From: Arbacia lixula | Taxonomy: Eukaryota; Echinodermata; Echinoidea; Arbacioida; Arbaciidae | NCBI GenBank assembly: GCA_963669155.1 | Contig: OZ022588.1 | Location: 641,501-705,500, forward strand | DNA length: 64,000 nucleotides | Reading direction: 5' to 3' | Shown: positions 8,198 through 60,971 of the stretch, one piece after another | Layout: each line of letters starts with the position of its first letter | How positions within the stretch are numbered: the stretch's first letter is position 1 | Position numbers and translations under genes: made by a program | Notes under the pieces: model-generated | What the model was told of the DNA's origin: nothing | The model's database searches: none | The model's input: the letters and a program-made list of their open reading frames with translations, nothing else

Positions 8198-8225
8198 GCA
8201 CTGTGTCGTACACAGTATCCCATGC

Positions 8226-8879: not shown

Positions 8880-8927
<48 letters not shown>

Positions 8928-14615: not shown

Positions 14616-15735
<1,120 letters not shown>

Positions 15736-18204: not shown

Positions 18205-18400
18205 TTAGATCTTTCCCATCTCGTGCAGCAGTGACGCCCGCTGGGATAAGTCGCTCTCTGACGTTGACAGTCGTGAATAACGACCCCAAGATGGCCGACC
18301 GTCGCGCACTCTCTGCACGACACGCGCGTACCGTGCGTCGGGTGGGGTCAGACGAGCGCGCGTCATCCCGCTGCGACTGCTCTCAGACGGAGTTGAGAAC
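18205..18400 (-). CDS. Terminal coding exon of the giant gene (64 residues plus stop)
   Basis: The big exon would run into TGA at 18972-18970, but that TGA lies inside an excellent donor, CTCAG|GTGAGA. The acceptor TTAATGCAG|G at 18401 takes up phase 2 exactly (AG+G, Arg) and opens 64 codons ending in TAA at 18207-18205. The peptide starts FSTPSESSRSGMTRARL and ends SLLHEMGKI. It contains YSRLSTSESDLSQRAS, which echoes SKSEADLR at the end of the preceding exon. GC content is far above the flanks. A short palindrome (GCAGATGA/TCATCTGC, 18187-18204) follows the stop in the 3' UTR. The alternative is termination at the TGA without splicing. Confidence 0.75.
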
Positions 18401-21400
18401 CTGCATTAAGATGATATTGGATCGAAAAGAAGTAAGATTGAAGGTTAATACTGAAGGTTGTGTATAATGTCAAACTTGTAACAATCCACATTTTCAAGTA
18501 CATGTATATCGCGGTAGTTACTAACTTAATTCTCATTTGTGATCCTATTGTAATTTTAACTTGTACTCGGCGCAAAAAAGAGAGTCTCATATTCAAATCT
18601 TATTTTCGGGGGTGGATACGGAGCCGTATTGCTGTTGATACTATATATTTTTTTCATCTTTATCATTATTGAACCGTTACTCTGACATTGCTGTTATGGT
18701 CAATTGTACTACGACTTTATTTCAGCTTATCGAACGCCACATGAAACGTGTGATGAAACCTGGCAAAATTTAATATCTTAAATGCATGTGTCATGGGTAA
18801 AGCCACCCTGTTAATCTGCAGTCATGAAATATTACATGATTCGTAAGTTTGTAGATAACTGGTCTTTGAATTTTTTTACCACCATAAAACTGGGCTCTTC
18901 TATTGAATGTTTGTCAAAGAGAAAATGAGCTTGATACAGGATGAAGAGATTTAGTTTCGAATGAAATTCTCACCTGAGGTCTGCCTCAGACTTGCTTCGT
19001 CGGTAAGCTAAGGGGCTCTCTCCATCCGGTCTCGACTGGTACCTTGTTAGTTTAGTAGAACTCTTTGGTGGAATGACTCCAGATAGAGTGAGTTCCTTCC
19101 TCAGGAGACTGCTCTTCAGCTTCGTCGATGGCCGCCTTCTCCTTACGGTGTCCCCTGGATGAACGCGCACTTCCTCGTCAGAGGAGGAGTCCAGACTTCT
19201 CAGAGTGGACAGGTCAATTTCACCGCACACCGTCTGGTTGTCGTCGTCCGAATCGTAGATCTCGGAGTCAGAGCTTGGTTCACCCGGTGTCTTGCGAGGA
19301 CTAGTGTATGGCCAGAATCGAGGATCCTCGTGGAGGTAGGGGCTCTGGAAGTCCATGACTGCTTGCCAGGACTCAGAATCTGTTTCCGAGTCTGTGGTAC
19401 AGATTTCAGACTCAACATCACTTGGAGACTCGTCTGCCGGTCGGCCTGGAGGTCCGTCCTTTGGCTTGGCATATCGCGACCGGATCTTCTCCACCGATGG
19501 CAGCGCGTACTCATCGGTTCTTGGCTTGTCAGGTTCCTTTTCCATCAGCCAACCATAGTCAACGTAGGATGTTGGTCTCGACTTGCGGAATAGTTCATCA
19601 AATCGAGTGACCATTGGGAACGAGTCTGTTGAAGACCGGCGTGGTTTCCTGTACATGATGTGAGTGGGCTTCATTCCAGATGCACCTGATGATGTGGGTT
19701 CGGTCGAAGTCATTCCACTGGTTGTGGCCAAGGCTTCTCTTGGTGAGCTTTTCTGGTCGTAAGGCAGACCTGTTTGAGGAACGTCTCCAGGTGTTTGACC
19801 CACCTTTGTGACCGGTCGTTTCCCATACAAAAGTTCCCTTGTGGATTTTGGCCTTGCTCCATATGAAGCAATCCGATGTGGCGTTCTTCGTGGAGTTTGC
19901 TTCTCGTCAACTAAATATTTGACCAGGGTGGTTTGGTCATCGGACATGATGACCTTTGATAATCTCAAGTCACGTCGAATTCTCTCCAGCTCATCAACAT
20001 TGATGGATCCACTCCCAGTGAGAGAATCTGGCTCGGATAGTTCTGAAGAGTCGTCATCGTCGTCATGGGATTTCGGCGGACTGTAAAGAGCGAGTGGTTG
20101 TTGACTCATCTGTGTTCTGGTGGTACTCTTCGTAGTAAGCGAGGTCCTGGAGATGGATTCCGTCAGCATAGCAGTCGTGTATGTAGTACCAGCGGTCGTC
20201 CGTTGAAGAAGCACCACTCGGCAGTTTGGTGGCATGTTGTCCTGAATTACCTGACTCAAAGAGGAGTGTGTTTCGTCGATCTGGGTAGATGAATAGAAGC
20301 TACTACGAGGCTTGTATGGAGTGACACGCTGCTCAAAGGACAAGTCACGAGTTGGTTCGAGCTTATCGATGGCATGGACGCCCATGTGCACATCTGAATC
20401 AAGGAGGCGAGATGCTGATTGTTGCGTTTGGTCTGTTAACCTGAACTGAGGTTGGCTTGTCCTCTGAGGGTTTGGCGGAGTGATGCTGGTCAAGCGTAAC
20501 GGAGTTTGCTCCCTGGAAGGAAGGTCTATTGTCACTTTCTTTGGAGATTTCATAGAAGACGGAGTTGGGGTTTGTTGAACAGGTTGGAATGTGCGTGGTG
20601 ACAATGATTCCAGGCCTGGTGGCGTGGCTTCCACGTCTGGCTTTTGATAGTAGAAAAGGACTGGTGAAAGTGCACGGTCATGGGTTGGCGTCTTCTGCTC
20701 AGGGAAGTAGAAGGGAGAGCCCGCTCCTTCCCTCGTCACTGGTTCAACCTGCACAATGTGATCAATGGCGTCAGTCCTCTTTTCAGGTTGCGATCCTCTC
20801 GTCACATAGCCAATACTTCTGTCAGGTTCTACGGATGAGTGGCGGATGTTTGGTGAAAATGATTGCACTGAGGTAGTTGTGCGACGTACAGGTGTGGACA
20901 TTGTCTCACTGTCCACAGTGTTCGGCACCACTTGCATCCCAGAGTGAGATAGTTGCTGTCCTCGTTGAATGCCAAAGTCCTTTTGTGACCTTGAAGTCTG
21001 CGTGACTTGATTTCCCAGTGATCTGCTTGTTTGAGTATGTGCTGGACCAAACTTTCTTGGTGTCATAGATGTCTCCTTCGATGTTGAAATCGACCTTGCC
21101 TCTGCTGTCTGGTGTGTTTGCAGTGGTCGTATGAGAACTTGCAAAGACTGATGAATACGCTCTGGAGAGTAGGCACTTTGGCTTTCATGGTGTCGCACTT
21201 GGGTAATATCGGTTTGAGACGATGCCTGTTTGTTGGCTGGTTTTGCTGGCGTCGTGCCTCGGTCACTTGTCATGGGATGAACCTGGGTCTTTGAATCTTT
21301 TGTATGTGATCTATCTGTAGATGTTCCTCTGGTTGCATTCCGAGCCTGTGTCTGGCAAACTTCGTCGATTTTCACTGGTTTCGTTTCCTCCATTTGTACA

Positions 21401-24400
21401 GCTACGTCTGTTCTTTGTACCAACATTTGGGTCGAGTTGTCGCTTGGCTTGGTTTGATGAGGAAACGTTCCCCGTTGGACCATTACAGGCTTAGCTGGAA
21501 TATCCTGTTCCTTTGGCAACTCAAATCGAAGCGTCTCAACGAGCAATTCTTTCACACGATCTTGGATGTATTCCTCTTTTATCTCCTCTCGGATTCGCGG
21601 CTCGAGCTCCTTTCTGATGGTGACTTCTAGGTCATCCCGAACTTCTTCTTCTATCTCGTGCCTTATACGAGGAGCAAACTCAACTCTATAGTCTTCGCGA
21701 TATTCACTGTATAACTCTTCTCGAACCTCTTCCATTACCGTTTCCCTGATTTCTTCCTTGAATTCTTCTTTCAATTCGAGACTCAATTGGTCGCGAATAC
21801 TTGTAGTCAATTCTGCTGACAACTCGTCAATAACCTCTTCTCTGATCTCATGTTTTATCTCCGTGACAAGCTCCTCACTGGGCGGAAGACGTGATGCAGT
21901 GTCAGGTAGGATAACTTCTGGCAGAACACTCTTCTTCTCTGGTACTTTGTGTTGGGTGCTGAAATGTTTCTTCCGAACATCTGCTTGCTGGATCTCATCG
22001 AAGACAGGGGGTTTAGCCTGGACGTTTTCATCTTGTGCTCTATGATAGGTTGGAGATGTTGAGTCGGATACCATCAGAGGCTTGAGCTTTGGCTCATGCA
22101 TTGACTTGACAAATTCATCCCTAATTTCTTGTCTGACTTCATTGATGATTTCTTCCCTAATTTCTTCTATCAGTTCCTCTTTGATTTCACGTCGCAGGTC
22201 TTCCTTCGCTTCTAGTCTTATCGTATCTCTCAGTCGCAGCCTTTCCTCAAAACTGATCTTAGGTTCGGGGAACGAAATTGGGGTAGATTGTACGGGCTGT
22301 GCTGTTGTCGGACGAATTACTTCAGTGACTTTCTCCACTTCTGGAATATCACTACCAACTTGGACTGACCCATCCTTCATCTCTCGTTTCGACAGGATTT
22401 GGTTTGCCGAATCTACGTTTACTGGACTCACTTGCGCTCCTCGGTCAGTGTGATCAATTACCACTGGAGAAGATGTAACCTCTTTCATTTCAAGAGTATT
22501 TTGGACACTAACATCAGTACGAACTGACAGGTATTGTGAAGACTCGTTCCGATTTTCCGGTTGAACTTGCAAATACCTGTCCGAGAAGTCAACTTTAGCC
22601 ATGCCTGTACCCTCGTCAGCCGTAGTTGGTTCTGCGTGTGATAACACGTCTTGAGTCTTCCTAGTCATGACAGGAGAGCTTGCAGTATCATGGAGAACAC
22701 GCTCCAGCGAATACGTCGAGGTCTCCTCGGTTGTTGGCTTTGCCTGGGTGGTGAAATCTTTGCCTTCAATCGCAATCGTATTCGTTATTCCATCAGCTGA
22801 CAACCATCTTGCTTGAGACGGGACATCAATACCGGTTGCAGTTGCTTGAGTGTTGAAGTCTTTGTACTCTGTGATGAACATCATTGTACTTTCATCTACA
22901 GCAGTTTTCCTTTGAAGTACTGGTGAACTAGTCTTATCTGCAATCAAGTGTGTAGACTGTGCTGAGCCATCTGTCGTCGTTGGGGTTGCTTGTGTGGTGA
23001 AGTCCTTTGCTTCTGCGGCAGGTGGTTGGATCATGCTGCTCTCATCAGATGTGATCTTCCTTTGCATGATAGGTGAACTGAGCTTGCTAAGAAGTGTAGA
23101 TACTTCCACTGCAGTAGTTTCATCCACAACAACCTTTCTAGCAACGATAGGCGAGCTGGGCCTGTCCATAATCGGCTTGGCAAATTGGGCCGAACTCTCA
23201 GTAGTTGTTGGTGTTGCTTGTGTGGTGAAGTCTTTCCAGTCCGAAGGAGGTGGCTGAATCATATTGCTCTCATCAGCTGTGATCTTCCTCTGCATGATAG
23301 GTGAACTGAGCTTGCTAAGAAGTGTAGAAAGCTCCATAGCAGTAGATTCGTCTACGACAAGCTTCCTTTCAGCGACTGGGGAGCTCGGCTTGTCAACATT
23401 CATCTTCGTAGACTGTGCTGAGCCATCTGTCGTCGTTGGGGTTGCTTGTGTGGTAAAGTCCTTTGCTTCTGTGGCAGGTGGTTGGATCATATTGCTCTCA
23501 TCAGCTGTGATCTTCCTCTGCATGATAGGTGAACTGAGCTTGCTAAGAAGTGTAGATACTTCCACTGCAGTAGTTTCATCCACAACAACCTTTCTAGCAA
23601 CGATAGGCGAGTTGGGCTTGTCTGTAGTTGTTGGTGTTGCTTGTGTGGTGAAGTCTTTCAAGTCCGAAGTAGGTGGCTGAATCATATTGCTCTCATCAGA
23701 AGTGATCTTCCTCTGCATGATAGGTGAACTGAGCTTGCTAAGTAGTGTAGAAAGCTCCATCGCAGTAGATTCGTCTACGACAAGCTTCCTTTCAGCGACT
23801 GGGGAGCTCGGCTTGTCAACATTCATCTTCCTAGACTGTGCTGAACCATCTGTCGTCGTTGGGGTTGCTTGTGTGGTAAAGTCCTTTGCTTCTGTGGCAG
23901 GTGGTTGGATCATGCTGCTCTCATCAGCTGTGATCTTCCTCTGCATGATAGGTGAACTGAGCTTGCTAAGAAGTGTAGATACTTCCACTGCAGTAGTTTC
24001 ATCCACAACAACCTTTCTAGCAACGATAGGCGAGCTGGGCTTGTCCATAATCAGCTTGACAAATTGGGCCGAACTCTCTGTAGTTGTTGGCGTTGCTTGC
24101 GTGGTGAAGTCCTTCAAGTCCGAAGGAGGTGGCTGAATCATGCTGCTCTCATCAGCTGTGATCTTCCTCTGCATGATTGGTGAGCTATGCTTGTTAAGTA
24201 GGGTAGATAGCTCTATAGCAGTAGATTCGTCTACAACAAGCTTCCTTACAGCGACTGGCGAGCTAAGTTTGTCCACAATCGGCTTGACAAATTGGGCCGA
24301 ACTCTCTGTAGTTGTTGGTGTTGCTTGCGTGGTGAAGTCCTTCGAGTCAGATGGAGGCGGTTCAAACATATTGCTTTCATCAACAACAAACTTCCTGAAA

Positions 24401-27400
24401 TCTATGGGGGAGCTAGGCTTGTCTGCAATCACTCTTGTATACTGTGCTGAACCATCTGTGATCGTTGGTGTTGCTTGTGTTGTAAAATCTTTAGATTCTG
24501 CTGGCAGTTGCTCGATCATAGTGCTTTCATCGGCAAGTGTCTTTCGAATTAGCACAGGAGAGCTCAATTTGTCAACTGTAGATTGCTTGAGAGATTGCGA
24601 AATGCTGTCAGACGTTGTGGGCGTGGCCTGTGTAATGAAATCCCTTGATTCGGCTGACATAAATTCGCTTCCTTTGTCGATAGCCGCCTTCCGTACAAAT
24701 ACAGGAGAAGTGGGTGTCTCCAGGGCAGTTGGTATTACCTGAGCAACAAAGTCCTTCGATTCTTGCTGGAACATCATTGTGCCTTCATCAGTTGTTACTC
24801 GATCTGGTTGAGATACCATCGTGCTTTCATGTGCTTTCCGTGTAAGCATGGGTGAGTTGATTTGCTCTGTAGTCTGTGGGGACATCTGAGTTGTGAAATC
24901 CTTTGATTCCGATTGAAGAGGAACAATCATTGTGCTTTCGTCAGTTGCAATTCTCCTCACAGGCACGGGAGAGCTGAGCCTATCGACCATTACACTTCTG
25001 AGAGATTGTGATGTCACATCAGCACTCACAGGAGTTGCCTGGGTGGTGAAATCTTTAGCAACTACACGAATCACCAGCGTGCCTTCCTCAACAGTGACCT
25101 TTCGCTGCAAGACCGGAGAATTGATCTTTTCATGGGTTGTTGGACTTGCTTGTGTATTTAAGTCCTTTCCTTCCCTCGATTGCATCATAGTACTTCCATC
25201 AACGACCATTTTCCTCTGTACAACCGGGGAAGTGACCTGATCAGTGTAAGCTAATTTCATGGATTGAGTTGTGAAATCTTTCGATACAGTTTGAGGTGTG
25301 AAGGTGGCTCCATGCGTGACTGGTACTACAACCTGAGACGATACGTCTGCTATCAAGGGCTTTGCTGTTGTAATAGACTGCTCTCCTGTCGATAACAGTT
25401 GCTGTGCCGTTTGATCACGGGTTTCCGGTTTGATTTGGAATGATCCTTCAACTACATCAATCTTTCTCGTTGACGTTGCACCTTCCAACGTATCTGGTTG
25501 AACCTGAGCTTGCGCACTCCCACTGGTAGGTTTGGCCTGGGTTGTAAAGTCTTTAGCCATTGAAGGAGGCGGCATAGATGTCCCACCGTCTGTCATTTGC
25601 ACACTCTTTCTCTCGAACACAGGAGAGCTCATCTTATCATCTGATTTAGCCACAGTAGGCTGTGAAGCACCATCCACCGTTGCTGGAGTTGATTGGGTAG
25701 TAGAATTCTTGGCATTCGTTGTTGTCGCGGTGCTTTCATCTGCCGTGAGTTTTCTTACCAATACAGGTGAGGTGTTCTTGAAAGAAGTAAGTGATTGAGG
25801 ATATTGAGAAGTACTGTCCGTTTTGTCAATAGCCGTCTGGCCCAGGAAATCCTTTGCTTCAATACTCGTCGTACTGCTTTGTTCAGACGTAGCCTTTCTC
25901 TCCAGAACAGGAGAAACCATTTTATCGGATATGGGAGGGGTGGCTTGAGAATTGACATCTGTTCTTGCAGCTACCATTATTCCAGTACTGCTGTCGACAC
26001 TGGGTACCAAGTGCTGAGAGGGTTGATCCGATACTCGTGGCTCCACTTGGGCACCTGCCTCCTCAGTTTTCCTCTTAAACACTGGGGAGCAGGCCATATC
26101 TGCCATCACTGGTCTTCTCTGGACAATTTCATGCTGCACGGAGTTGTCTTGCCAATTCATAGTATGTTGAGTTGACGAATTCACGAAGACTCGTGTTGTT
26201 AGATCACTCTGTGTGGTTTGCGATGATAGAACACTATGGATTTGTGTCCCTCTTTCGTGTATCCATGCACCGGTAGTACCCACACTTGTCTCGTTCATTG
26301 TTGGTTGAACCTGTTGGGAAGCATCAACACCGATTGAACGAGGAATCTCCGCAAAGTCTTGGATGAAGTTGATCTGCTGAATCGGGGCTTCGTACGTTGG
26401 TGCAACTGAATGATCCATTGTTTCCGCCAAATTATCGACAAATGTATCCCACGTGAATTCTTCAAGGGAAATGCGATCTGACTGCATATCGGGGTATTCC
26501 TCATCGCCGTACACATCACTGAAATCGGCAAACAGTGGATCTGTTTGCGTGGAAGTCATATGAACCTCTCTCCTTGGGAACATCGGAGAATTCGCCAGGT
26601 CTGCGCAGGTGGGCATCACTTGAACAGATATGTCAGCAGATTCCGTCATTTCGTATTGACTCATCGACTCTGCTACGTCAGTTCTGCATTGTACGGAACT
26701 TTCGCTTTGATCAGCCTTCGCCCAGGAGTTTGCATCAGCACTATCAGGTTTCGTTACCGTGCCGTGGTCTGCGCTCTGTGGAGCAATGTGTGCAAGTGAC
26801 TCCTGGCTTCTCATTGAAGGCTTAGCCTGGGCTGATGAATCAAGTTGTGTGAGGCGGGTTGTTTGTGAGTCAGTAGTCTGACGATACTTGGCCATAGTAC
26901 TTGTCTCAGCATGCACCATTGCCTTCCGCATTTGCTTCGGTGAGGGTGTTGCCGAAGCAGGAGGGCTATACTGTGCACTGGTTGTGCTCTGGTATACAGG
27001 CATGGTGAATATTCCTTCATCCACCATCATAGGTTCAGCCTGCATATATGTCTCAGTCTTACTTGTGATATGCTGCGAAGCTGTGTCGGTCTTTGGTCTA
27101 ACTGTGGGTTCCATCTTAACTTGTACTCCACTGGAAACAGGTGCGTCTGAGCGTGTCCCAGTACCCTGTTCAATCGTCCGGGGTTGCGACTGCATTGCCA
27201 TGTCAATTCCCATAGCCACAGTTTCTGTTACACCATCTGCTGTGTCAGGGACAGTCTGTTGGTAAGCATCATTAACGATGGATTCTGTCTGAATGGGCGC
27301 ATGCTCGTATTTTTCAATGACGGTTTCAGTGTGTCTTTCTCTTCCATCAAGCACGTAGGTTGCAGTGCCGATATACATTGGACCAAAATCTGGCTCATCC

Positions 27401-30400
27401 ACCTGTACGCCAATTGACACCTGAGATGGAGGCATAGTCTGAGTTGTAGTGTCGTCAATGTCTTCCTCAACGGGAGATGACGCTCTGTCAAACCCACCGA
27501 GATATTCGGTTTCTGTCGCATTATCATGCGTTCTCGAATCACGGAAAGAAATTGGAGCCAATTCCTCGATTTCAGTCACCGCAGACAAGATAGGCTCTAT
27601 CACCATTGCCGAATGCTCTTCCACCTGAAAGTCTTGAATGATATCCTCCTCAATGAGATCATCAGTTTGACACATTGCCCCTCTGATGATTGCGGGCTCA
27701 GTTGACGTTCCTTCGCTTGCTGACACTGTTGTAGACTGTGTGACGACATCTTTAGAATCAGTCTTGAACACCGTTTGGGTAGGTTTCGTCGACACGTGGG
27801 TGACAGATGCTGCTGTGGCCTGACTTGCTATTCTTGGTCTTACGTCAGTCTGTTTGCTTGTCAACTCACGTTGCTTCTCTTGATGTTGAACGGCGTAATG
27901 CGAAGTGGCAGGCTTTACCAAGTGGGCCTGTGTACTGTCCGATCTCATCTCCAAACGTTTGGCCTCTGTCGACCGTTCTGATGTGCGTTTGACTGACGCT
28001 GCCTGTACCGATGTACTCTGTCGTAGTTTCTCCACTTGAGATGATTTTGTGGTTGTTGCTTTGACAGCTGTCTGGGCATCTCTATCGAGTCCACGAGACA
28101 GAACGGGTGATGACGCTTTTTGAGACGTATTAGGTGAGAACTGAACTTGGCCCTCATTTCTCTTGATTTGGGACTGCGTCGTTTTCGCAGATCTTTCAAT
28201 CACGTTCGGCTTATCTGTTTGCAGCTCTTTGTGAGATGATTGCAGTTTAATGATTTGTGATGTCTGATGTAGAACCTTGACTTGAGTTTGTGTTTCGAAC
28301 GCTTGGCGTCTGATTTCTGACTGCGTCGTGATATCAGACTTGGCGATTGGCTTCTCCATTGCAGTTTGTGACTCGCTGCTCTTTGCTCGTGTGAGGATGG
28401 GAGAAGATGATTGGTGCTGCGCTAGTGTAGACGTTTGGCTCACAATGTCATGTAGGTTGGTTTCAGACTGCGTCGACCCATCCTTGATATCCATTGCCAT
28501 TTGTGTTGTTTGTTGCTGCTGTTTGATTTCAAATTGCGCACTTGCATCAGCTGAAGCAACATCCTGGACTGGGGTTTGTGACGCCTGACTTTCTAGAGTA
28601 CGAAGGAGAGGGGATGCTGCCCGTTGCACAGTAGCCTGTACAGTCTGTACTTCCGAATCAGCTTCTCTCACGATGCGTTGAGAGGACGTATCAGCCAGTG
28701 TCATAACATGTTGAGTCATCTTTTCTTGGCCCTCTACGCTGTACTGATCACCACTATGGAAGAGAACTTTCCTCTCATCAATGGTTTGAGCTCCTGCCTC
28801 GAGCGATCGGACATCAAACTGGGTGGAAACTGCTGACTGGATCACCACTTCTTCGGGTACGGTTTGTGACCCAAATTGTGCAGTGTGAGTAGCTTCTGGT
28901 GCTGTTGCCTGGTGGATTGTACCCATATCTGTTTGACTCTGACTATCACCCATTGCGCTCTCATACTGGGTTACCATGTCCTTCTGGTCTTGACTTGATT
29001 GTGTTTCTCGAGGGAGTGCCTGCAGTGTGGTGGTATTTGAGGCATTCTCGCGCAGCTTTCGCTCATGCTGCGTCGCCGATTCGTGTACACGTGACTGATA
29101 CTGCGTGCTCATGCTTGTTGTTTTCTTTTCCTCTTCGGTTGCTGTTTGCGATGATCCACTGGTGAATTGTGGCAAGATTGTTGATGTCATCCTACTTTCA
29201 GCATTCCTACTAAACTGTGATTGAGCGTCTTGCCTTGCCAGGAGATATTGGGTAGAACTTTCCTGACTCTGTCGTTTGTATTGCGTCTTCATGTCTTTCT
29301 TCGTGGTAACCTTTTCTGTGGCAGTTTGTGAAGCTTGGTGGGCAGAACTAAACGGCAGAGGCGAACTTCCCTTTTCACTGACTGCAGACCCATGTTGTGC
29401 TTCTGCATCACTGACGAGTGAATCGTATTGTGTAGTGCTCGTATTCTGCGTGATACCATACTGACTTCCGACATGTTGCGCCACTGTCTCATACTGCGTC
29501 ACACTGTGTTCGGAAATTGCCTCGTGTTGCATTGCAGACTCCACGACCAAAGTCGTTGTCTGCATGATGTGGTCTTCGTATGATTGGTGTATTGGAGATG
29601 TTGCTCTTTGCTGATGCTCAACACCTGACTGGTCCATTGCATCTTTGCTGTCCGGCGCAAATTGAGTAGAGGACTCCTCGATATCTCCTTCATACTGAGT
29701 GAACTCGGTCATATTTGCATAAACCGACTGAGTCGTAATATCCTGTTGCACGGACTCATATTGTGTTGTAGCTTCGTTCCCAACAATGTCATACTGGGAT
29801 GCTTGTTCTTCACCTGCTCTGTCATGCTGGGTTGTACTTGCTTCAAGTTTCACCTCATGTTGAGAGGACACTTCTGTTACAGACCTCAAAGTTTGCTGAC
29901 CCGCACTGGCATACTTTGTAGAAACAGGAGATGTTCCCTGTTGCAGCGTGTCTGGGTCAAATCTAGCTTGCAAGTTCATGTCCAGTTGCTTCAGTTCGTG
30001 TTGAGTGGAGCTGTCTCCACTCTTCCTGTCATACTGCGTTGTAGAATGGTTTTGAGGGATTCCGGATTGTGTGGTACCGTCACTGGTCTGAATGTCTGGT
30101 TCAGCAATGGTTTGGAGGGACTGCGTATTGTATTCTTTGATATCAGACTGGCATGTTGTGTCTTGGAGTGCTAGCTCATATTGTGAAAAGCCATCTCCAC
30201 TAGTCACGTCGTGCTGCGTGAGACTGTCTTCCATCTTCCTTGCGATATGCGTAGCGACTTCGGTGACTGGTCGTTGAGTCTGTGTGTCTCGCTGAGAAGC
30301 TCGCGGTAATATTGGAGAAGTTGTTTGTTGTGTACGAAGCTGAGTTGTTTGGCTAAACGTGTCTCCGGTAGGTATAGCAGACTGAGTAACGTGATCTGCA

Positions 30401-51400: not shown

Positions 51401-54400
51401 GTCATGGTGGTCGTACCATCACGCAAGTTAGTCGTTGTCATCATTGATACAGTAGCGTGTTCTTTCACGACCTGAGAAGCAGTACTACTCTGCTCTACAG
51501 GCACAACAGGAGACGTGTTGCTGAATCCATCTTTTGCGTTGACTACTGCAGTTAATGTAGCTCCCTCAGATACATCTGGTTTTGCCATCATGGACCCAGC
51601 GGATGTTTCAACAGTGACCTGTGACTCAATGGTCGCTCGCTTTGGAAGAGGAGAGGTGTTGCTGAATCCATCTTTAACACTGACGACCATAGTAGATGTA
51701 GCACCCTCTGTCATGTCTGGCTTTGCAATCATGGACCCAATAGATGTATCAGCAGCTGCCTGTGACGCAATGGTCGCTCGCTTTGGAAGAGGAGAGGTGT
51801 TGCTAGACCCATCTTTAGCACTGACGACCGTAGTAGATGTAGCACCCTCGGTCATGTCTGGCTTTGCAATCATGGACCCAATAGATGTATCAGCAGCTGC
51901 CTGTGACGCAATGGTCGCTCGCTTTGGAAGAGGAGAGGTGTTGCTAGACCCATCTTTAGCACTGACGACCGTAGTAGATGTAGCACCCTCGGTCATGTCT
52001 GGCTTTGCAATCATGGACCCAATAGATGTATCAGCAGCTGCCTGTGACGCAGTGGTCGCTCGCTTTGGAAGAGGAGAGGTGTTGCTGGAACCATCTTTAG
52101 CACTGACGACCGTAGTAGCTGTAGTTCCCTCAGCAACGTCTGGTTTTGCGGTCATGGATGCAATCGAAGTATCAGGACCTATCTGAGAACCAATGTTTGC
52201 TCTGACAGGTAAAGGCGATGTATTAATAGCCCCGTCAGAAACCTCGGGGCGGACAGTCGACATGGTTGAACTCACAGAAGGTTTGATTTGTGCTCCTGAA
52301 TCCGCAACTTTCTTCACTGTTGTGTTACTACCAGATTCCTTTTGATCTTGGCAGACCTGGACTTGAGCGTTCGCTACGGGAGGAGAAAAGGTCGGAGCAG
52401 AAAACTGGACGTCGGGTGCTTGTTGTACGACTATCTTCTCTGTCTCCACTGGCATAGGCATATTCACAGTACATCCTTGATCGAGCTGTTCCACTTTGTC
52501 TGTATTAACTGAAGTTGAGTTAGTAGAACTTTCATACTGTGTCATTTGGCTGTCTTGCTTCAAAGGAGTCATGGTGGTGGTACCATCACGCAAGTCAGTC
52601 TTTGTCATCATTGACACAGTAGCGTGCTCTGCCACAATCTGAGTAGCAGTATATTTTCGCTCTGGAGGCGGCGATGTATTGACAGCCGTAATCTTTATCG
52701 ACGCATGCTCCGTATTCATTCCAGTATCACGGACCTCATCCTTGATATGGACTTGCTGTGTGAAGTCTTTGCCTTGGGCAAGTGCGGCTGCCTCTTTAGA
52801 CTGTACTTCCGGCTTAGCCATGACAGACATAACACTGCCAGCGGGCGTAATTTGTGAAGACATGTGCTTACCAGGCATCGGCTTATCAGTATTGGAGCTC
52901 GTTGTTTGCACCTTTGCAGTTGCTTGCATTTGTCCAACCGTTGTTTTAATCCGAATCGTCGACGTCGCAGCAGGTTGTGTTTCCGGTAAGACCATTACAT
53001 ACTCATCAGAACATTCAGGAGTAATCTGAGATCCAATTGTTGACGAAGTCAACTGCTCCGTATTCGTTGACGAGCTTGTCGTTTCAGGTGCTGTGAATGT
53101 AGGCGCCATCAAAACAGGTTGGATGATCTGTGGTTGAACCACTTCCTCGACAGGTCGCGGTATGTCTGCTTCATTCTGCTTGTCGGACGTTTGAACTGTT
53201 GTAGTGTTGGATGCACTGCTGCGGATGTCCTGGGCGATCTGTGTTTGCCGCGATGTCAATTCCACTGCTTTATCGGGTATTGTATTTGAAGCAGTATTTG
53301 CTACACTTGGTTTAGCTTGCATTGGCTTGGCAACTAATTTAGCTTGTTGTATTTGAACCCCTTGAGCGGAATAGACAGGGTTAACTTGCACGCTTGCATC
53401 CTTAGGAGTAGTGGGGTCGATGGTAGTGTAGTTATCAATAACAGATGTTATTATTTGTTGTCCAACAGTGATTGAAGGAGTTTGAAACTGCATCGCAAAT
53501 TGTTTGGTTGTTGCGGTCCATGTCTTTGTGTCCTTGTCTGCCGTTGAGATGCTCGTTATTGTAGTCTGGTCAGTCTTCGACACATCTTCACTCTGTGTTG
53601 TGGAGTCTTGTACCTCTGTTTCTATTGTTGACGTGTTGTCATCCTGGGTTTCTATTTCATCAGGTATATCTGTTTCCATTGTTGTGTCCTTGCTTGAAAT
53701 TCTCTCCGTGTTTGAGGCAGATTCCCTGGTGTCTTTCCTCTCAGTACTCTGTACTGGTTTCGAGGACATTCTCAACTTCTCAACAGATGTACTCTGGGCT
53801 TCATGTACAGGGGATACCTGCACTCCAGCAAAACTATGCGTGATGCTTTCCATTGCAGTCCCCTTGTCCACTATTGATACTGAGGTCTGTTGACTAACAG
53901 TCGCACGCTTGGCAATTGGTTCATCAAATTGGGTGATGAAGCTACGTGAAGTCGTTTTCCAAGCAGGAACAGCAACATCTCTGACGTTCGGAGTGACACC
54001 CGTTGCCCTCTCCTTTGTGGCTGGACTTGGTGTCGAGGTGGATGCATCTCTTGAGTCTGGGCGAGGAGCACTCATCTCAACCACTGGAGGAGCCTCGACA
54101 ACTATGGTCGGTTCAGGAGTGATAATGGGCAATGGATCTGTCTGGGAAGTTGACTCCCTATTTGACAACTTCACTGTGTTTGTCGTGGCCTGAGTGAATT
54201 TAATCCCAACTTGTACTCCTGCTGTATTCTTCCTGGTCATCTCATACTGGGTTTGTGATTCTGACACTGCTTGTTCTGTTTGGACGTGGGAATTATGGAC
54301 CTCCTTTGCATCTGAAACCTGCACGTTAAAGCTCGAAGAAGGCTGCTGATGTTGAATTTGCTTGGTACTCATTTCGGGGCTAAACTGATGAGCAACACTT

Positions 54401-57400
54401 CTGACCTCCGGCGTTTCTTCAATTGCTTCTGCTTGCGTTGTTTGCTCCTTTGATGCTGGTTGAACTTGAGAGGCTTTGTTTATCTTCTCTGGCTCCAGCA
54501 CGATGTTCTGAACAGCCATCTCGCGCATGCTGATTTGGTCGGGCGAATATTGATTTGTTACGTCCCTCACCAAGGCCTTAAGCGTCATTGTAGTTGCCTC
54601 ATCTGTGGACGGTGAGGCTTTTTGTCCAGCCTCAGTCGTATCCGGGCGCACCAGTGAAGCACGGTCATCTGTTGCTACCGCAGATGACTGTGTACTTGTT
54701 GTTTTTACGTCACGTTCGAACTGCGACGTACCGTCAGCTGTTGTTGTTGTTTGCTGGCTAGCTACATGTGCTGTCAACGGTGTGACCATCGTTCCTGTTG
54801 TAGTACGCCTTTCAAAAACAGGCGAGGAAGTGCTGTCAGCCATTTCAGGCTGGACCTGAGCTTCCGAGTCTTTTTGGTCGATTGGAGGAGGTGCAAGTAC
54901 TTCTTGAAGAACAGCCGGCACTACTTCCTCGCTTACGATGACAGGAGTTTGCGATTCTTTCTGTGAGATGTTGGGAGTCTTCACCCGTTTGGTGAGCCGT
55001 CGCTCGGTTTCTTCCTCAACCCTCATGATGAGTTCTGGCCATGATTGGTCCGACTGAGAAGACTTTTGAGAAATGGCAGGGGTGTAGGACTGAGTGTAAA
55101 TGTCCTTCACTCGTCGCTGCTCATTGGGGGATTTCAACGTGAAAACTCCCAGTGATTGGATGGTTGGTGCATAATCAGGTTCTTCCTCCTGTGATGCGAT
55201 ATGAGCCTCCAACTCCCGAATAGTCTTGACGTACTCACTTTCAAGTTCTTGTTTTAAGCCTCTGAGAAGATCTCGCCAAGATCTGTCTGGCTGCGTGTAG
55301 CTGTCGGAAAGATCTACCTCATCTGACTGAGTCGAAGTGTCAGCTTTGCGACTGATGTCCGGGGCCTTTAGTTTGATTATCCCCAGAGATGTTGGTATAG
55401 CTGGCTCTGGCTTTTGTTTTGTCTTCTTTTTCATCGTGATGATTGCGTTCTCCTCGATTCTGCTGATCAGTCTGTCCCACGAGGTTCGTGGATTGGTTCC
55501 TTGGTCTGTCGTTCTTACTTCTGGTCTTGACTGGACAGGGGTTTGTTCTTCCGCCTTCAGTTTGAAGATGCCAATGAGTGGTGGCTTTTCATCTTTTGTT
55601 TTTTTCTGTTGAGATGTTTTCTTGAACTGATGAATTGCAGTCTCCTCTATTACTCCAACCATTGTGTTCCAATCCTTGTCAGGGTTTGTTGCCTTGTCAG
55701 CTTTCGTCGTTGTATTTTTCTTCTTCAAAGCGTCTTCTACCTCTTGCTGGATAATTCTCACCAATAGCGGCCACGTCAGCTCTGGGTCAGTCCCAGAATC
55801 CTCTGTCTCGGTTTTAGCGGTTTCTTTCTTCGTAGATCTTCGTGTGATATCTTCTACCTCCGTCTGTACCATGCGAACCATCTCTCCCCAGGTGAACTCC
55901 GGTCCTGTGTTTTGATCTTGCTTCGGAACTGGTCGATCTTCAGAGCCGACCAACTTGAAAACTGCGAGAGGGATTTTTTCCGGCTTCTGTGGGGCTTTCT
56001 CGGTTGTCTTGGTTTCTTTCACCTGTTTGATAACCTCTTGCTGAACAAGCCGGATGATCTCTGGCCATTCCATTTCGGGTTGAACGCCTTTGTCATCGGT
56101 GGCAGTGGGCTGCGGTGCTGTGTCCACGCGATGCCTTTTGACCATTTCCTCCGTCTCTTCCTTGATGATACGTACCATCTGCCCCCAGGTTAGTTCAGGC
56201 TGTGTGGCGCCGTCAGAGGTAGGGCCCTTGGGTGCAGCTTTCAGCTGAAACGACCCCAGATTACTAGGTGCTTTCTGCTTCATGGATTGCTTTCGCATAA
56301 CAACCTCCTCGGTTTGATCTCGAACCATCTTGATCATTTGGCTCCATGGCATTTCTGGCTGCGTTCCAGTGCTTTCCGTTACAGGAGCACGCTGACTTGG
56401 GGCTTGCAATTTGACAACACTGACCATTCTTGGTTCAGTAGCTTCCGGCTTCTGTCGAGTTTTGCGGATGATGGATGATTCGATTTCTTCTTCCAGTTGT
56501 GTGACCAGGCGTTGCCATGACTGATCCGGGTTTGTTCCTTGAGTAACTGTGGTTCCCTTCTTTGGCTTCTCTTTTGTAGACTTCAGTTTGAAGACGCCTA
56601 GAAGAGGAGTCTTTTTGCTACCAGTGCGAGACGTTACTGCTCGCTCTTCTTCCACAAGGTCTCTCACTGTGCGGATAAGCTGAGGCCACGCAATAGCAGG
56701 CTCGGTCGAACTGTCTTGCATGCCACGTGACGGCTCTCTTGTCGGTGACGTTTGACGACGTGTAGTGCGTCTGATCACGTTGTCTTCTATCGTTTCTTCC
56801 AATTGTCTGACAAGCGTCGGCCACGAAACACTGCTCTGCGTTCCGACACTTCTTCCTCTTCCTGTAGTTGTGTCGGTGCGCTGGGTGTAGCTATTGAGTT
56901 CATCCCACCTGGACTGACGTAGAGAGTCTGGTTGGACTAACTTGATGACTCCAATGGTTGGGTAGTTGTCACGTGGTCCACCTGGGGATGGACTTCTGTC
57001 TCGTCGGGTGGTGCTTGTCCTGGTTGATGTCACCGTCTCGTCGAAGGAGCGACGAATACTTGACCGATTGAGAGGTGCTGCATCCGGTTGGTCAAAGTCC
57101 CTACCTGCCCAACTTACTCGCCTCTCAACTGGGTGCGGTTGCCGCTTATCCGACACTAGTCGCACGATCCCAATCGTGGGGATTTCCCCTGACCTGGGAC
57201 GATCAGGACGTCTTGAGGTCCGGGTGTGGAGAGGTTCATCTTCGTCCAGGAACTCTTGGGCGTACTGGTAGAGGGAGTCCGAGCGGCGGGTAGAAGAAAA
57301 GCGGCGAAACTGTGGCGTGGAGTCGACACTTATCCCGCTGCTTGAGTCGCGTTCTTCGTCTCCTCCCAACTGTGCTCCGGAGTCTCGAGAAATCAGACGA

Positions 57401-60400
57401 ATCACACCTATCGTGGGGATGTCATCCTAAAAGGAAAGAAGAAAAGTGAGAAAAATAGTGAGAAAGAAATTTGAGGAGACGAAGGGAAAGAGAGAGAGAG
57501 AATAATAGAGATGTAGCAAAGGAAATACAAGGGGGAATAGGAATGAAAGAATGGGGAGTATGAGGATATCACAAAGAAAGAGGAGGAAAACCAAGATGAC
57601 AAATCAGAGGTGGGGAAGATCATCCGGGAGTAAAAAATGTAATAATAGTATGTTGTAGCACTAGGTAATACAAGTAGAAATCGTAATGGGGAGATAATAA
57701 GTAAAGTTGGCAGAATACCCCTCCCCCACCTCCTTCCCATGAGGCAGAACATGCGAATATGAAGGAAAAGACATACAGAATCAGAAGAATGGAAAGAAGA
57801 TGAAGATAGATTACCAGAAGAATGAGAAGAAAGTTAGTATATGACAGAAAAAAATGCAAAGAAATAAGGGGTCATCGAAAAAGACGAAGAAATGAAAGCA
57901 ACCAGATAAGGAAATAAAGAACCTTGCTAATATAATATCCAAATTGCGAAGTGGTAGTATTATAAGAATATTGATAATTAAATGTAGTCTTCGACTTATT
58001 TCTATTTGCTGAAGCCATGGGAATCACAGCGGAAAGTATTGCTTGCATTTAAAAACAATTTATACTCCCTTACTGTAAACACACAGGCTGTACAATCGGG
58101 TATTATGTTTGTATTATTATCTTTATTCTCAAGTTAGCTGTCAAGCTTTAAACTTCAGACTTTAATCTTTTCTCATAATTGATAGACCTATAATATAAGA
58201 GAGCAAGTACAAAGTTATGATACAAACAGAATTTAGCAATATTGTTTATCATTGCTTGTATTACGATTGACAAACAAAATATACCGTTTAAAAATTAATT
58301 AAATTGATATAAACCTAACAATTTTCGAGCATCTGTATTAAGACAAACTTGGTTTGTTTGCTCTTTATTCGTTTCTTTTTGATAGAAACAAATAGTTTGA
58401 CATAAATAACTATCGGTAATGGGTTTAATATATTACAGCTTTCCATACCCCCATTACAGGTGATCGTAGATCCGGCGAGCGGCCTCTAGGAGACCGTCGC
58501 ACAGGCGAAGACGACCGTGATCGTCGCACGGGCGAATTCGACCTCGTTCTCCTCGGACGGCGCAATTTGTCGGTAGTCGACATCTTCTCCGTAAAGGAAG
58601 TTGTCCACGTTCTAGGAAGGCTTGAAGATCTGGAATGGCGGTCGTTTTCGTCGGAGCTCACTGAATCTCTGTCTGGACTTCGTGGTCGACGACCACGGAG
58701 TGAGTTTGGATTTACCAGCTTGATTATTCCTGCACAAAACACAAATCCACAAAAGCAAAATGGAACAGTGTGACGCATATATCCATCTATATTTTCGGAT
58801 TGATTTATTATCGTTGTGCTATTTACATGACTGCGAAATTGATTTTCACCCTTTGCCATTAGTTTCATTGCAATGGAGGTGGCAAGAACTTAGTGAAAGA
58901 TGATATTCTCCTCGTCTCTTCCGTGTTTCTAATGTTCTCCTTTTTCTTTTCCATTCGTTCCTCCAGTTATGAACTATCACCTCAGTCCACACATAGTCCA
59001 CCAAGCGAATCACTGTTCTATTTTCCGTACTTCCTTGTATCCTAAATGATTGATCGTAACGTGTGATTTATATAAATATATATACACGAGGTTTTTGTTG
59101 TATTCTATGTACTTATTTTCGAGTAGAAGGCTGATACGAAAACACACACTGGAAATCTGCATCACTAAACATAATATGACGAGATCATTTCCAATATGTA
59201 TAAGTCCTTAGCGATTTTGACTTTTGTCATAATTTGTTTGATTTTATGCAGAAATTGAAATTGGAACTGGCAATATTTGAGAATTGTCTATGGTTTTATG
59301 CTAATACTGCTAAAAAATGTTTTAAGGTGAGTGGATTTTAAAGCTACTGCATACTAACCAATTGTAGGTACTCCTGGATCTCTCCTAGATCGCCGTTCGG
59401 TTGTCATCTGTAGTTCTTTCTCAAAGGAGACGTTTGGACGAGGAGCCAAGATCTCACACTGACAGGCAGAATCTCGAACCACCTTCTTCGGATCATTCGG
59501 ATCCCGTCGCGTCCTGTGTGTAGACGACTGAGCCTCGTTGACGACGGAGTAAGTCGTACTTCCCACGTGTCTGTCCCTCTCCACAGAGTGAGGGCGTATC
59601 GTTTTGGAGGAGCCAAATGTCTTGTGCGGGACGGCGTATAAGGGGTTGTATTTCTGGCCAGTTTCGTCTGTTACCGGCTGGCCGATGCTTTTAGTGGAGA
59701 GGCCTGTGTGGAACCGGAAGCTTCTGGGACTCGTGGGAGATCCACCGTCGCGTCTGAAAGGGATACCACCCATATCGGCTCTGTACCGGCCAGCCCCGAT
59801 GTGGGTCACCCCTTGCCAGGAGTTCTCGCTCTCTCCGTAGTCGTACAGGTCCTCATCACTGCTGTCCGATCGCTGAGGATCCCGCAGGATGAAATTGTCG
59901 TCAAAGGCTCGACCTGGAATGGGCCTTGCGATGCCTCCGCGCCCCGTTCGTGGCCCACCGAGGTGATAGCTACCGTCGATCGTGATTCTAGCTTCGGTGG
60001 TGGACGAGTGAGGTTCCATTTGTACAACGGTGGAGTCTCTGAGGCCATGGGACGGACTGCCTGGACGGGAGCCGACGAAACCCTGGTTGTCGATACCCAA
60101 GGTTGGTGAAGAAGCCCGACGTTTTCCCCCCAAGCCAGTGTGATAGCGGTAGGTCATTATGTCGTCATCTGCTGTTGTTGCCATGCCGATGGTCCACTCC
60201 GGAGACAGAGGTGGCCGAACGATACTCTTGAACCGGGCAGAGGAGAAATCAACATCGACGTCAGAACCCTTGTGCAGACCTTTCAGTATCGGGAGTTCAT
60301 CCTTGCGTCCGCCGTACGTTTCGCTGTGCCTTCGGCCGCCGTGCCCGTCATCAGAGAACTGCCATCCGGTTGTGTAGTGGTACTCGTTGGTCATTTCAGA

Positions 60401-60889
60401 TTCGTAGGTGTGTCTTCCGTTCATAATGCCGTCTTCCGCTACCTTATCACTGGAGATTGGGTAGCGGTAGATCGCCGGACCATAGGGTGTGCTCTCGGAA
60501 TCGGTGTTATCCGAAATGGTGAAGACCTCCTGCGTTTTCTTTTTCCTCTCCTTCATCTCCATCCTCACGGCTTGCTCCTTCTTCGGGTTAACCGTCTGCT
60601 CTGTCGCACCTGATGTCGTCGGTATCGTCTCCCGTATCCGGACCTCGCTGCCATCAGTCGTTACGAAGGTGTGCTGCAGCTTGGGAGGCCGCTTCTTAAA
60701 GTAGTGTTTGTAACAGAGGATGGCGCTGGTCTCGAGGATGATGGCGACGATGAAAGCCGCCATGACGGACCCGATCAGGACTCCCGTGCTCACTACATTC
60801 GTGGGACACGGTCCTTGCGCCGACACTGGCGGCGCGGTGACGAGAAGGATAGATGAAGCGAGGAGGAATTTGATTGATGACTGATCCAT
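18205..60889 (-). CDS. Giant single-pass membrane protein with repetitive cytoplasmic tail, 13,486 aa, four coding exons
   Basis: The coding exons are 60889-59359, 58729-58449, 57426-18974 and 18400-18205; their summed length is 40,461 nt, divisible by three. Junction phases agree (1, 0 and 2) and all sites are GT-AG. Introns are 58730-59358, 57427-58448 and 18401-18973; none shows another gene. Domain order by residue: signal peptide 1-24, tiny ectodomain 25-35, membrane helix about 37-60, juxtamembrane region to 511, RS-rich exon 512-604, W/KLK modules about 605-1420, a huge S/T/Q-rich array about 1420-12300 with an 11-residue register, tetrad helices 12336-12383 and 12457-12560, and a unique charged C-terminus. 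I recognise no named family; automatic pipelines might call it mucin-like, which the topology contradicts because the repeats follow the membrane helix on the predicted cytoplasmic side. A cytoplasmic scaffold or tether at the membrane is my inference. Confidence 0.88.
18974..21558 (-). other. C-terminal part of the giant exon, final repeats then unique charged region
   Basis: After the helices, TQ-type repeats fade by about 20.6 kb. From about 20.1 kb the protein is non-repetitive: DDDDDSSELSEPDSLTGSG, then an amphipathic stretch (NVDELERIRRDLRLSK), basic segments (YRKPRRSSTD), RFDELFRKSRPTSYVDYGWL, an acidic STDSETDSESWQ-type cluster, EIYDSDDDNQTVCGEIDLS, and a basic end (SPLAYRRSKSEADLR). 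As complex sequence it is the best probe for homologues. Confidence 0.8.
18974..57426 (-). CDS. Giant 38,453-nt exon encoding about 12,817 residues
   Basis: A pyrimidine-rich acceptor (CTTTCCTTTTAG|GAT) at 57427 opens the exon in phase 0 with DDIPTIGVIRLIS. The frame is then uninterrupted for 38.45 kb to the donor at 18973. GC content is visibly higher than in the flanking AT-rich DNA, and repeat copies vary mostly as amino-acid-like substitutions while keeping frame, so it is under coding constraint. The exon is longer than the longest human coding exons I know of (MUC16, roughly 21.7 kb; titin, about 17.1 kb). Many opposite-strand open frames inside it are by-products of the repeats. Confidence 0.95.
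21559..22233 (-). other. Two charged helices with strict 4-residue hydrophobic period
   Basis: Residues 12336-12383 (22233-22090) and 12457-12560 (21870-21559) divide perfectly into tetrads whose first residue is hydrophobic. Examples from the first are LRRE, IKEE, LIEE, IREE; from the second IKHE, IREE, VIDE, LSAE. There are 12 tetrads in the first and 26 in the second, with no register break. Positions 2-4 are dominated by E, R and K. Composition strongly predicts helix, but a period of 4.0 does not match heptad (3.5) or hendecad (3.67) coiled coils. A linker of about 73 residues with a SDSTSPTYHRAQ segment separates them. Confidence 0.9.
22330..26150 (-). repeat. SSPVxxRK / KDFTTQATPT repeat block (residues about 11030-12300)
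   Basis: Units alternate SSPIMQRKITADES, a linker ending KDFTTQATPTTTD, and SSPVAERKLVVDES. Between about 23.05 and 24.4 kb cassettes repeat at about 228-230 bp (one at about 193 bp) with high DNA identity. The S-P-x-x-[RK]-K layout suits proline-directed kinases; that function is inference. Confidence 0.88.
26150..28300 (-). other. Transitional region between TQYE and SSPVxxRK blocks (residues about 10310-11030)
   Basis: Less repetitive. It has acidic-hydrophobic stretches (EEDIIQDFQVEEHSAMVIEP near 27.6 kb; IQQINFIQDFAEIPRSIG near 26.35 kb) with scattered VQV and TQ sites. It probably contains binding motifs distinct from the array. Confidence 0.6.
28300..38700 (-). repeat. TQYE block: strict 11-residue [S/T]-Q repeats (residues about 6850-10310)
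   Basis: Successive units start with [S/T]Q[Y/H]E and are 11 residues long, for example TQHESSQSESS, SQYEVAYKNAT, TEYDVKMQESM, MQHATTQKDGS and THYEWDSTHSS. Near 32.0-36.0 kb a 67-residue cassette (five 11-mers plus one 12-mer) and a shorter 45-residue version are tandemly amplified. A larger cassette beginning with the APRVETTDGLTQHEL sequence recurs near 33.62, 34.71 and 35.67 kb. Spacers of the type HQxSSPILRR and LQTP punctuate the array. Frequent Pro and Gly argue against long helices. Confidence 0.92.
38700..41400 (-). other. QTD-rich region with a 36-bp tandem repeat (residues about 5950-6850)
   Basis: Several QTD/QTE sites sit in acidic, hydrophobic context: SFCQTDFEELPFEE, DSTCQTESEF, DSQVQTDDADVLS and ETQTEQELAE. 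Near 39942-40117 five 36-bp units encode TSPVTTSDRQSA and variants. The QTD sites resemble dynein light chain LC8 ligands in form. Confidence 0.65.
41400..45000 (-). other. Mixed region: diverged repeats, helical segment and acidic patch (residues about 4750-5950)
   Basis: It includes a conventional helical stretch near 42.0-42.36 kb (EDIEELLEAVKKNLVETV; then QYEETLRMRDKELSVV) and an acidic patch near 41.45-41.62 kb (DSDDMETETDADSG; EEEYEDLLSR) framed by two IQTDPV/MQTDPV sites. Acidic-hydrophobic modules lie near 43.5 and 44.0 kb. It separates the SNTSPLP block from the TQYE block. Confidence 0.65.
45000..52250 (-). repeat. SNTSPLPxRA repeat block with 141-bp units and higher-order duplications (residues about 2330-4750)
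   Basis: The basic unit of 47 residues (141 bp) contains SNTSPLPKRAT, then SQ-, MIAKPDMTEGA and STTVVSAKDGS segments (13+11+11+12 residues). At 48644-49349 five units repeat at exactly 141 bp with almost no differences. A larger cassette starting at the VNMPMPVETEKI sequence recurs near 48265, 49474, 50293, 51253 and 52430. Its spacings (1209, 819, 960 and about 1177) differ by one or two 141-bp units and a 33-bp deletion. Proline-directed S/T-P sites followed by basic residues are abundant. Confidence 0.93.
52250..54980 (-). repeat. Degenerate S/T/Q repeat region (residues about 1420-2330)
   Basis: Older, diverged repeats with motifs such as VQVSPV, NTTVQTSD and ASNTE, and at least two acidic-hydrophobic modules (VPAVLQEVLAPPP near 54.9 kb; ADIPRPVEEVVQPQ near 53.1 kb). 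DNA-level similarity between copies is low, unlike the next block. Confidence 0.7.
54980..57420 (-). repeat. Twelve W/KLK modules (protein residues about 605-1420)
   Basis: Each module has a beta-like strand such as PTIGVIKLV, LLGVFKLKS or SLGIIKLKA, a variable linker, a TQPE-type turn, and a helix starting at Trp. Examples are TWGQMVRIIKEETEEMV, SWQRLVTQLEEEIESSI and PWSQMIKMVRDQTEEV. The helix consensus is W-x-x-hydrophobic-[VI]-x-x-[VIL]-x-x-E-x-E-E followed by basic residues. I count twelve Trp helices and about eleven strand motifs including the copy at the exon 1/2 junction. The Trp and the acidic end are nearly invariant while linkers vary, suggesting a folded or ligand-binding unit. 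Confidence 0.85.
58449..58729 (-). CDS. Second coding exon of the giant gene: RS-rich
   Basis: The acceptor TTTTGTGCAG|GA at 58730 completes the Gly split after PTI. The exon encodes IIKLVNPNSLRGRRPRSPDR, then S/R-rich sequence with SNSPVRRSRSSSPVRRSPRG, ending SPDLRSPVMG at the donor GGG|GTATGG (58448). It is 281 nt, phase 1 in and phase 0 out. The S-P-V-R-R and R-S-R runs resemble SR-type phosphorylation clusters, here next to the membrane side of the protein, so an RNA role need not be implied. Confidence 0.85.
59359..60889 (-). CDS. First coding exon: signal peptide, membrane helix and juxtamembrane region
   Basis: The start is ATG at 60889, the first in-frame ATG after an in-frame TGA, in good context (G at -3 and +4). 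MDQSSIKFLLASSILLVT begins a signal peptide, probably cut after VSA (residue 24). Residues QGPCPTNVVST form the whole ectodomain, then VLIGSVMAAFIVAIIL and following residues cross the membrane, with KHYFKKRPPK as stop-transfer. The cytoplasmic part has two similar blocks (MTYRYHTGLGGKR and RSFRFHTGLSTKS), an acidic SDSSDEDLYDYGES patch and many S/T phosphosite-like runs. It ends VPTI plus one base of a Gly codon at the donor G|GTTAGT (59358). A two-helix hairpin, with the signal peptide uncut, is the alternative topology. Confidence 0.88.
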
Positions 60890-60971
60890 GTCTGGGTGTA
60901 GGTAGACGATGAGAGGAATGTGCAGTCCTTTGAGGAGATCGTTGTCCTTTGGTACCAACGCGTGTCAGCAT
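60696..60971 (-). other. Upstream open reading frame overlapping the start of the giant gene
   Basis: Two bases after the acceptor at 60974/60975 an out-of-frame ATG (60971) opens 91 codons that overrun the main ATG by about 190 bases. Ribosomes using it could not initiate at the main start without leaky scanning. The peptide itself (begins MLTRVGTKGQ) has no recognisable features and is probably regulatory or neutral. Confidence 0.4.

Follow-up and report, generated by a model that had tools for sequence, protein, structure and literature searches.

A predicted giant membrane protein of Arbacia lixula, encoded largely by a single 38-kb exon and carrying an 11-residue repeat signature

A window of 64,000 nucleotides from the sea urchin Arbacia lixula (assembly GCA_963669155.1, contig OZ022588.1, positions 641,501 to 705,500) contains, on its minus strand, an open frame of 12,818 codons (57426-18970, stop-to-stop scan; positions here and below are those of the window). 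This raises the question of whether so long a frame belongs to one gene and, if so, what the product might do. The runner-up stop-to-stop frame in the window has 713 codons, the five other frames over the same stretch have 415 to 822 stops each and, at the intergenic stop frequency of 0.053, the probability that a frame of 12,818 codons arises by chance is ~10^-305. An earlier note, made from the sequence alone, had joined four exons in frame at this locus. This stands: four minus-strand exons of 1531, 272, 38453 and 196 nt are spliced into 40,452 nt, including the stop codon, without an internal stop, and encode 13,483 residues with a molecular weight of 1,475,108 and a pI of 5.2, so that the mass of 1.45 MDa given in that note should read 1.475 MDa. 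The same note had described the largest exon as longer than the largest human coding exons, and this agrees with the sizes of those in MUC16 (about 22 kb) and titin (about 17 kb).

Exon 1 (59359..60889, 1531 nt) starts with an ATG at 60889 and encodes residues 1-510 plus 1 nt of the next codon, a region predicted to comprise a signal peptide, a short outside segment, a membrane helix and the first 450 residues of the tail. Within the interval 60889-61000 the minus strand has a probable 3′ splice site (TTCTCTTCAG) whose end, at 60974, is 85 bases from the start codon, so that an additional, non-coding exon upstream of exon 1 is possible. Exon 2 (58458..58729) encodes a basic, RS-rich segment and is required, as the frame between exons 1 and 3 is kept only when it is included. 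It has 272 nt, or 281 nt to 58449 when an alternative donor (GTATGG) positioned 9 nt downstream is used; this donor is also in frame and gives a product with three residues more, so that the 13,486 residues previously reported hold with the alternative donor and 13,483 with the first. Scored with a donor matrix for human sites, the alternative exon-2 donor has 1.45 bits versus -1.62 for the first, and the exon-1 and exon-3 donors have 0.54 and 6.58 bits, respectively. The exon 1/exon 2 join rebuilds the motif PTIG-IIKLV (PTIGIIKLV), which is found again, without splicing, where exon 3 begins. Exon 3 (18974..57426, 38,453 nt) has no stop and encodes residues 602 to 13,418 of the 13,483-residue version, as well as two bases of the codon that follows, and exon 4 (18205..18400, 196 nt) encodes a 64-residue tail and ends with TAA.

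Several features indicate that the long frame is coding. With a codon model trained on exon 3 without the 3-kb flanks of the segment being scored, the predicted frame was top-scoring in all of the 255 windows (300 nt each), although distant repeat copies remained in the training set and the scoring is thus not fully independent. The lowest score of an exon-3 window, 0.17, is above the highest score of an intergenic control, 0.11, taken as the best of six frames. The frame scan and the frame scoring together confirm the 38,453-nt exon without a stop claimed before. Exon 3 is repetitive, and all 364 of its internal DNA repeat matches (non-overlapping, 150 nt, identity at least 72%) are offset by a multiple of 3, as are the periods of all 22 tandem-repeat rows within the exon divisible by 3. 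In pairs selected by DNA identity, 48% of the differences fall at the third codon position, or 49% when one pair is taken per 150-nt bin (60 bins). The pooled ratio of nonsynonymous to synonymous differences (pN/pS) over 339 repeat pairs is 0.49, with pN below pS in 326 of them; these pairs were picked by protein identity, which biases the estimate downward, and as they had equal counts at codon positions 1 and 2 the analysis was redone with the DNA-identity pairs, with a similar outcome. The core of the protein was expanded by in-frame tandem duplication, apparently with selection acting on the protein.

It is very improbable that the gene model is an artefact in which two or more genes, or hidden introns, are fused by an accidental open frame. 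The middle of the gene is known from genome sequence alone, a point that favors such an artefact and also counts against the reading that we prefer below, but the frame scores, the lack of any in-frame stop and the presence of relatives of both ends all argue for a genuine single gene predicted to encode one giant protein. With exon 1 as query, two related proteins were identified (E up to 0.001). P0001, from a contig of 2,120 nt, has 62% identity over 99% of the query and its start methionine is aligned with that of exon 1, and P0002, from a contig of 9,030 nt, has 26% identity over 76%. The conserved blocks of the exon-1 tail include SDSSDEDLYDYG, identical in exon 1, P0001 and P0002. At the position of the exon 1 end P0001 has TIG-K, and P0002 terminates in TIG-K; this fits a GTAAG donor following the phase-1 join, as judged from the amino acids. 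P0002 also has two IKLVRPE motifs, related to the PTIGVIKL-type motifs in exon 3, and its sole match in the A. lixula genome (E up to 0.001) is this gene.

At the other end, the last 480 residues of exon 3 (18973..20412) form a conserved C-terminal region that identified one related protein, P0003, with 67% identity (2,948-nt contig). P0003 runs unbroken across the position of the exon 3/exon 4 join, and its tail shares 42 of 64 residues with that encoded by exon 4 (score 196, against a maximum of 24 in 1,000 shuffles). This continuity reflects either spliced RNA or an intron-less gene, and the frame is supported either way. Scans of viral and of prokaryote contigs with alignment A1 yielded no confirmed relative. 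In the genome itself, queries made from exon 1, the C-terminal region, the tryptophan-module region and the KDFTTQ array, the last two described below, match this locus alone (E up to 0.001; best candidates scored), and seven of seven matches of the KDFTTQ array are within exon 3. A transposon origin, also considered, was discarded on these grounds.

The earlier note recognized no known family, and this also held: neither exon 1 nor the four pieces into which exon 3 was divided had a Pfam match above cut-off. Two matches in exon 3, to Agglutinin (E 0.015) and sCache_3_3 (E 1.4e-4, 22.6 of the 28.8 bits needed), are below the curated cut-off and were taken as chance. There was no convincing match in the PDB, the best having E values of 0.1 for exon 1, 0.13 for residues 602-1,422 and 0.68 for a profile of the tryptophan modules, and the final 1,152 residues of exon 3 had no match up to E 0.1. 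Searches of the open-licence PMC literature for a record exon, for giant echinoderm proteins and for this protein gave no listing in which it is named; an annotated orthologue may be present in UniProt.

Residues 1-25 resemble a signal peptide, forming a weaker hydrophobic stretch before the single strong membrane helix at about residues 32-58 (60716..60796), which is followed by a basic cluster, CYKHYFKKRPPK. Mean hydropathy exceeds 2.0 in 19-residue windows only within residues 32-60 and the maximum past residue 80 is 1.56, at 7351, in keeping with the earlier statement that nearly all of the product lies after one membrane helix. With a signal-like stretch before the helix and basic residues after it, the tail should be inside the cell, and the product is then presumably a type I membrane protein with a tail of about 13,420 residues facing the cytoplasm. 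The same helix could instead be a signal anchor, with the Ser/Thr-rich repeats extracellular and glycosylated as in a cell-surface mucin or adhesive. Serine and threonine make up 26% of the core, N-glycosylation sequons number 98 versus 70 expected from composition, and MUC16-type membrane mucins similarly combine a giant Ser/Thr-rich repeat exon with one membrane helix. In membrane mucins, however, that helix is C-terminal, whereas here it is N-terminal, behind the signal-like stretch and before the basic cluster, with all of the repeats after it and presumably inside. Proline accounts for only 5.7% of the core and charged residues for 21%, and no mucin, SEA or EGF domain was matched in exon 1 or the exon-3 pieces (Pfam). 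We consider a mucin or adhesive improbable.

The tail has an ordered succession of repeats. Ten copies of the motif [LIVM][GASV]x[FIV][KQRT]L, as PTIGVIKL, LGVFKLK and similar sequences, are present at 55135..57411, and twelve tryptophan modules (54964..56853, residues 793-1,422) have the consensus xDxGTQPxxxWxxLVRxxxEExE. The modules were cut around each tryptophan, making its invariance a product of construction, and Trp 707 and Trp 775 were left out as not fitting. There follows a giant repeat core (22270..54909, residues 1,441-12,320). This includes separate stretches of 47-residue (141 nt) tandem units with SNTSPLPKRAT (48520..52175), the densest 11-residue array, DxxTQ[YH]E (31930..38229, residues about 7,001-9,100), and a KDFTTQATP / SSPIMQRK tandem array (22956..24348) whose units are 65-141 residues long, two of the copies being 97% alike. 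An EEIREE-rich charged stretch (21430..22272), with 20% Glu, is possibly helical, although its heptad signal is weak (a/d hydrophobic fraction at most 0.50).

Across the core, the autocorrelation of identical residues is 1.59 at lag 11, exceeded up to lag 59 only at lag 47 (1.70), the length of one tandem unit. A signature, [DE]xx[TSVI]Q, is present at 271 sites in the whole protein, with successive sites separated by 11 residues in 92 of 270 cases and by 12 in 18; most other spacings are longer, 22 being the next commonest. The residue after the signature glutamine varies by sub-array. It is Tyr or His in the middle of the protein, more often small distally, and proline in 10 of the 12 tryptophan modules, in which the position of the glutamine in the arrays is occupied by Gln in 6 of 12. 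There are 123 sites that conform to [DE]xx[TSVI]Q[YHF] versus 3.4 expected, with 86 of these within residues 7,001-9,000 and a longest run of 13 sites (7973-8108), and 95 that conform to [DE]xx[TSVI]Q[TVICAS] versus 22.2 expected; the expectations come from 200 shuffles within blocks of 500 residues and ignore duplication. Neither SxIP (4 versus 3.9 expected) nor PxxP (55 versus 50.4) is enriched. One near-signature copy, RDSACQCE, is already present at the end of exon 1 (59453-59476), as RDSATQCE in P0001, and P0002 has a near-signature copy, KDISAQ, at a different aligned position.

From the observed frame, repeats, homologous ends, single strong membrane helix and 11-residue register we infer, with a probability of about one half, that this gene, single in the genome, encodes a giant type I membrane protein with a tail that would function as a cytoplasmic multivalent scaffold or tether. 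The twelve tryptophan modules may be short amphipathic helices that dock one partner repeatedly, the core would consist of short strands, flexibly arrayed, to which a cytoskeletal or adaptor protein docks, and the conserved C-terminus could provide a second anchoring point. The whole protein would then link a membrane patch with a cytoskeletal structure and concentrate one partner there in many copies. Very long proteins are easily missed or fragmented in annotation. The one predicted here is intact, with a signal of selection, conserved ends and a short, recognizable signature, so that its partner can be sought directly with peptides, and the gene provides a model for the growth of an exon past 38 kb without loss of frame.

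Several observations weigh against a scaffold or tether. The earlier note had proposed that relatives be sought for both gene ends; these were found for exon 1 and for the last 480 residues of exon 3, and for the part between them the one query used, which spans exons 1-3, had no relative when the best 7,989 candidates by shared words were scored. The signature is unevenly distributed, its density ranging from 0 to 66 sites per 1,000 residues, and is at its lowest in the core at residues 2,001-4,000 (3 and 2 sites), where SNTSPLP-type units are present instead. The mirror-image control, Q[TSVI]xx[DE], is itself twofold enriched (100 versus 50.8), so that only the larger motif excesses carry weight, and a motif multiplied by duplication is over-counted relative to shuffles. 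The charge-hydropathy rule, moreover, calls disorder in only 164 of 267 windows. Slack growth, with useful and conserved ends and a middle that is mostly filler expanded by unequal crossing over, would account for tandem units up to 97% alike, for sub-arrays that differ in the residue after the glutamine and in signature density, and for relatives seen at the two protein ends only. The signal of purifying selection within the repeats and the lag-11 register across the core as a whole are not expected of filler, and we regard slack growth as unlikely, while giving it some weight.

A more specific proposal is that the [DE]xx[TS]Q units are strands bound by the dynein light chain LC8, or a paralogue, with LC8 dimers stapling two parallel chains into a stiff rod hung from the membrane. 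LC8 sites, as described in PMC6607443, have 8 residues, with Asp favored at -4, Thr at -1, Gln at 0 and Pro, Asp or Glu at +2. Around the 418 [ST]Q of the core, Asp (5.8-fold) and Glu (3.1-fold) are enriched at -4, and Glu (3.3-fold) and Asp (1.7-fold) at +2, with Pro at +2 outside the five most enriched. Sites of 8 residues joined by 3-residue linkers would repeat every 11 residues, matching the spacing of the array, and in fly ASCIZ the linker between QT2 and QT3 has 3 residues (PMC10046861). The short, regular linkers expected of an LC8 client are thus present in the spacings of 11 and 12 residues given above, and [DE]xx[TSVI]Q[TVICAS] is in excess, as noted, as is QT[DEP] (51 versus 27.3).

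Other features of the sites fit LC8 poorly or only in part. The buried residue at +1 should be the size of Thr or Val, but is Tyr, His or Phe at 123 of the 271 sites, and proline in most of the tryptophan modules. Large side chains at -3 are preferred by tight binders, according to PMC6607443, but here the position is mixed, with Gly (2.7-fold) and Ser (1.5-fold) enriched beside Phe, Ile and Met. The strict LC8 motif, with its Thr/Val-Gln-Thr/Val anchor, occurs 11 times versus 5.2 expected, with up to 16 in shuffles, and the LC8-like pattern [KR]x[TVI]QT is not enriched (5 versus 3.5 expected). Because of the +1 residue, the mixed -3 position and the lack of clear enrichment of the strict motif, the protein was not assigned as an LC8 client, and stapling by LC8 is, in our estimation, quite unlikely.

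The genome has 13 matches to the LC8 family (Dynein_light), 11 of them in two clusters. In human there are two LC8 genes and in fly a few, and it is by this comparison that the family appears multiplied here, which would favor the LC8 proposal; as LC8 has other jobs, the clusters are circumstantial evidence. They provide a testable link between the giant protein and clustered genes of the same genome. Eleven of the 13 matches retain the GSYVTHE strand without change, hence no remodelled pocket is evident. All 13 (L003-L015) are without internal stops and 12 are near full length. Seven are in a 73-kb cluster on contig 8 with one more elsewhere on that contig, four are within 13 kb on contig 5, and the one on contig 4 (L015) spans only profile positions 34-86. 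In L015 and in three of the contig-5 copies (L011-L013) divergence is greatest near the groove; L013, for example, has FIYMNHSNS in place of FIYFYLGQ. It is a long shot that dimers from this multiplied set of LC8-like light chains accept DxxTQY/H/A and staple two parallel chains of 13,480 residues in register, with one staple per roughly 11 residues in the dense part of the array; were this so, the result would far exceed in size any LC8-type duplex known to us, and would be a new kind of membrane-attached cytoskeletal rod.

Among known systems, AHNAK, a giant-exon cytoplasmic scaffold, resembles the proposed scaffold or tether in having one enormous repetitive coding exon (here 38,453 nt) between small exons, short degenerate repeats and a role as a scaffold at membranes. 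The A. lixula protein differs in having its own signal-like stretch and membrane helix and in being more than twice as long. As to homology with AHNAK, the comparisons covered Pfam (exon 1 and all of exon 3) and the PDB (exon 1, residues 602-1,422 and the final 1,152 residues of exon 3), with no convincing match. The LC8 clients ASCIZ and Nup159 (PMC5963919 and PMC10046861) similarly have Thr-Gln anchors in tandem, set in disordered sequence and separated by short linkers, but ASCIZ has 7 sites in fly and 11 in human, versus 271 loose sites here at which the +1 residue is often not LC8-like. Proteins of at least 5,000 residues number 250 in the bat star and 234 in the purple sea urchin, the highest of the proteomes surveyed in PMC11573180; giant size is thus shared, and in the part of that survey available no protein like this one is named. 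The earlier note had put the locus forward as the main candidate for an undescribed system. What the data show is one gene, with a structural-looking product, in a group of animals for which huge proteins have already been surveyed. Repetitive exons of giant size are known, as are huge proteins in echinoderms, and what is new is a giant that is anchored in the membrane, presumably faces the inside of the cell and has an 11-residue signature.

The window lies on contig 13 (23.6 Mb) of the 607-Mb genome. A contig of 15,740 bases in this genome has COX1 with in-frame TGA, and the translation resembles COX1 when AAA is taken as Asn and ATA as Ile, as in translation table 9, although AAA is present only twice in the stretch matched and this table is used by flatworms as well as echinoderms. 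The large rRNA gene immediately precedes COX1, and tRNA-Arg and tRNA-Lys follow it, all on one strand, which is the order of sea urchins and not of sea stars; code and gene order together indicate an echinoderm, probably a sea urchin. In the window as a whole, Rfam and tRNA scans were empty. The intergenic sequence includes a 12-base CGCGTCCTAATG tandem with 6.2 copies (13670-13743) and AG arrays (14618-15127). An open stretch of 269 codons on the minus strand (12452-13261) is without a Pfam match and is, we presume from its appearance, the end of a non-LTR (long terminal repeat) reverse transcriptase. Part of the pol region of a Ty3/gypsy-type retrotransposon, with RNase H, integrase zinc-binding and integrase core domains (Pfam), is present on the plus strand at 2-2143, where it is cut by the edge of the window.

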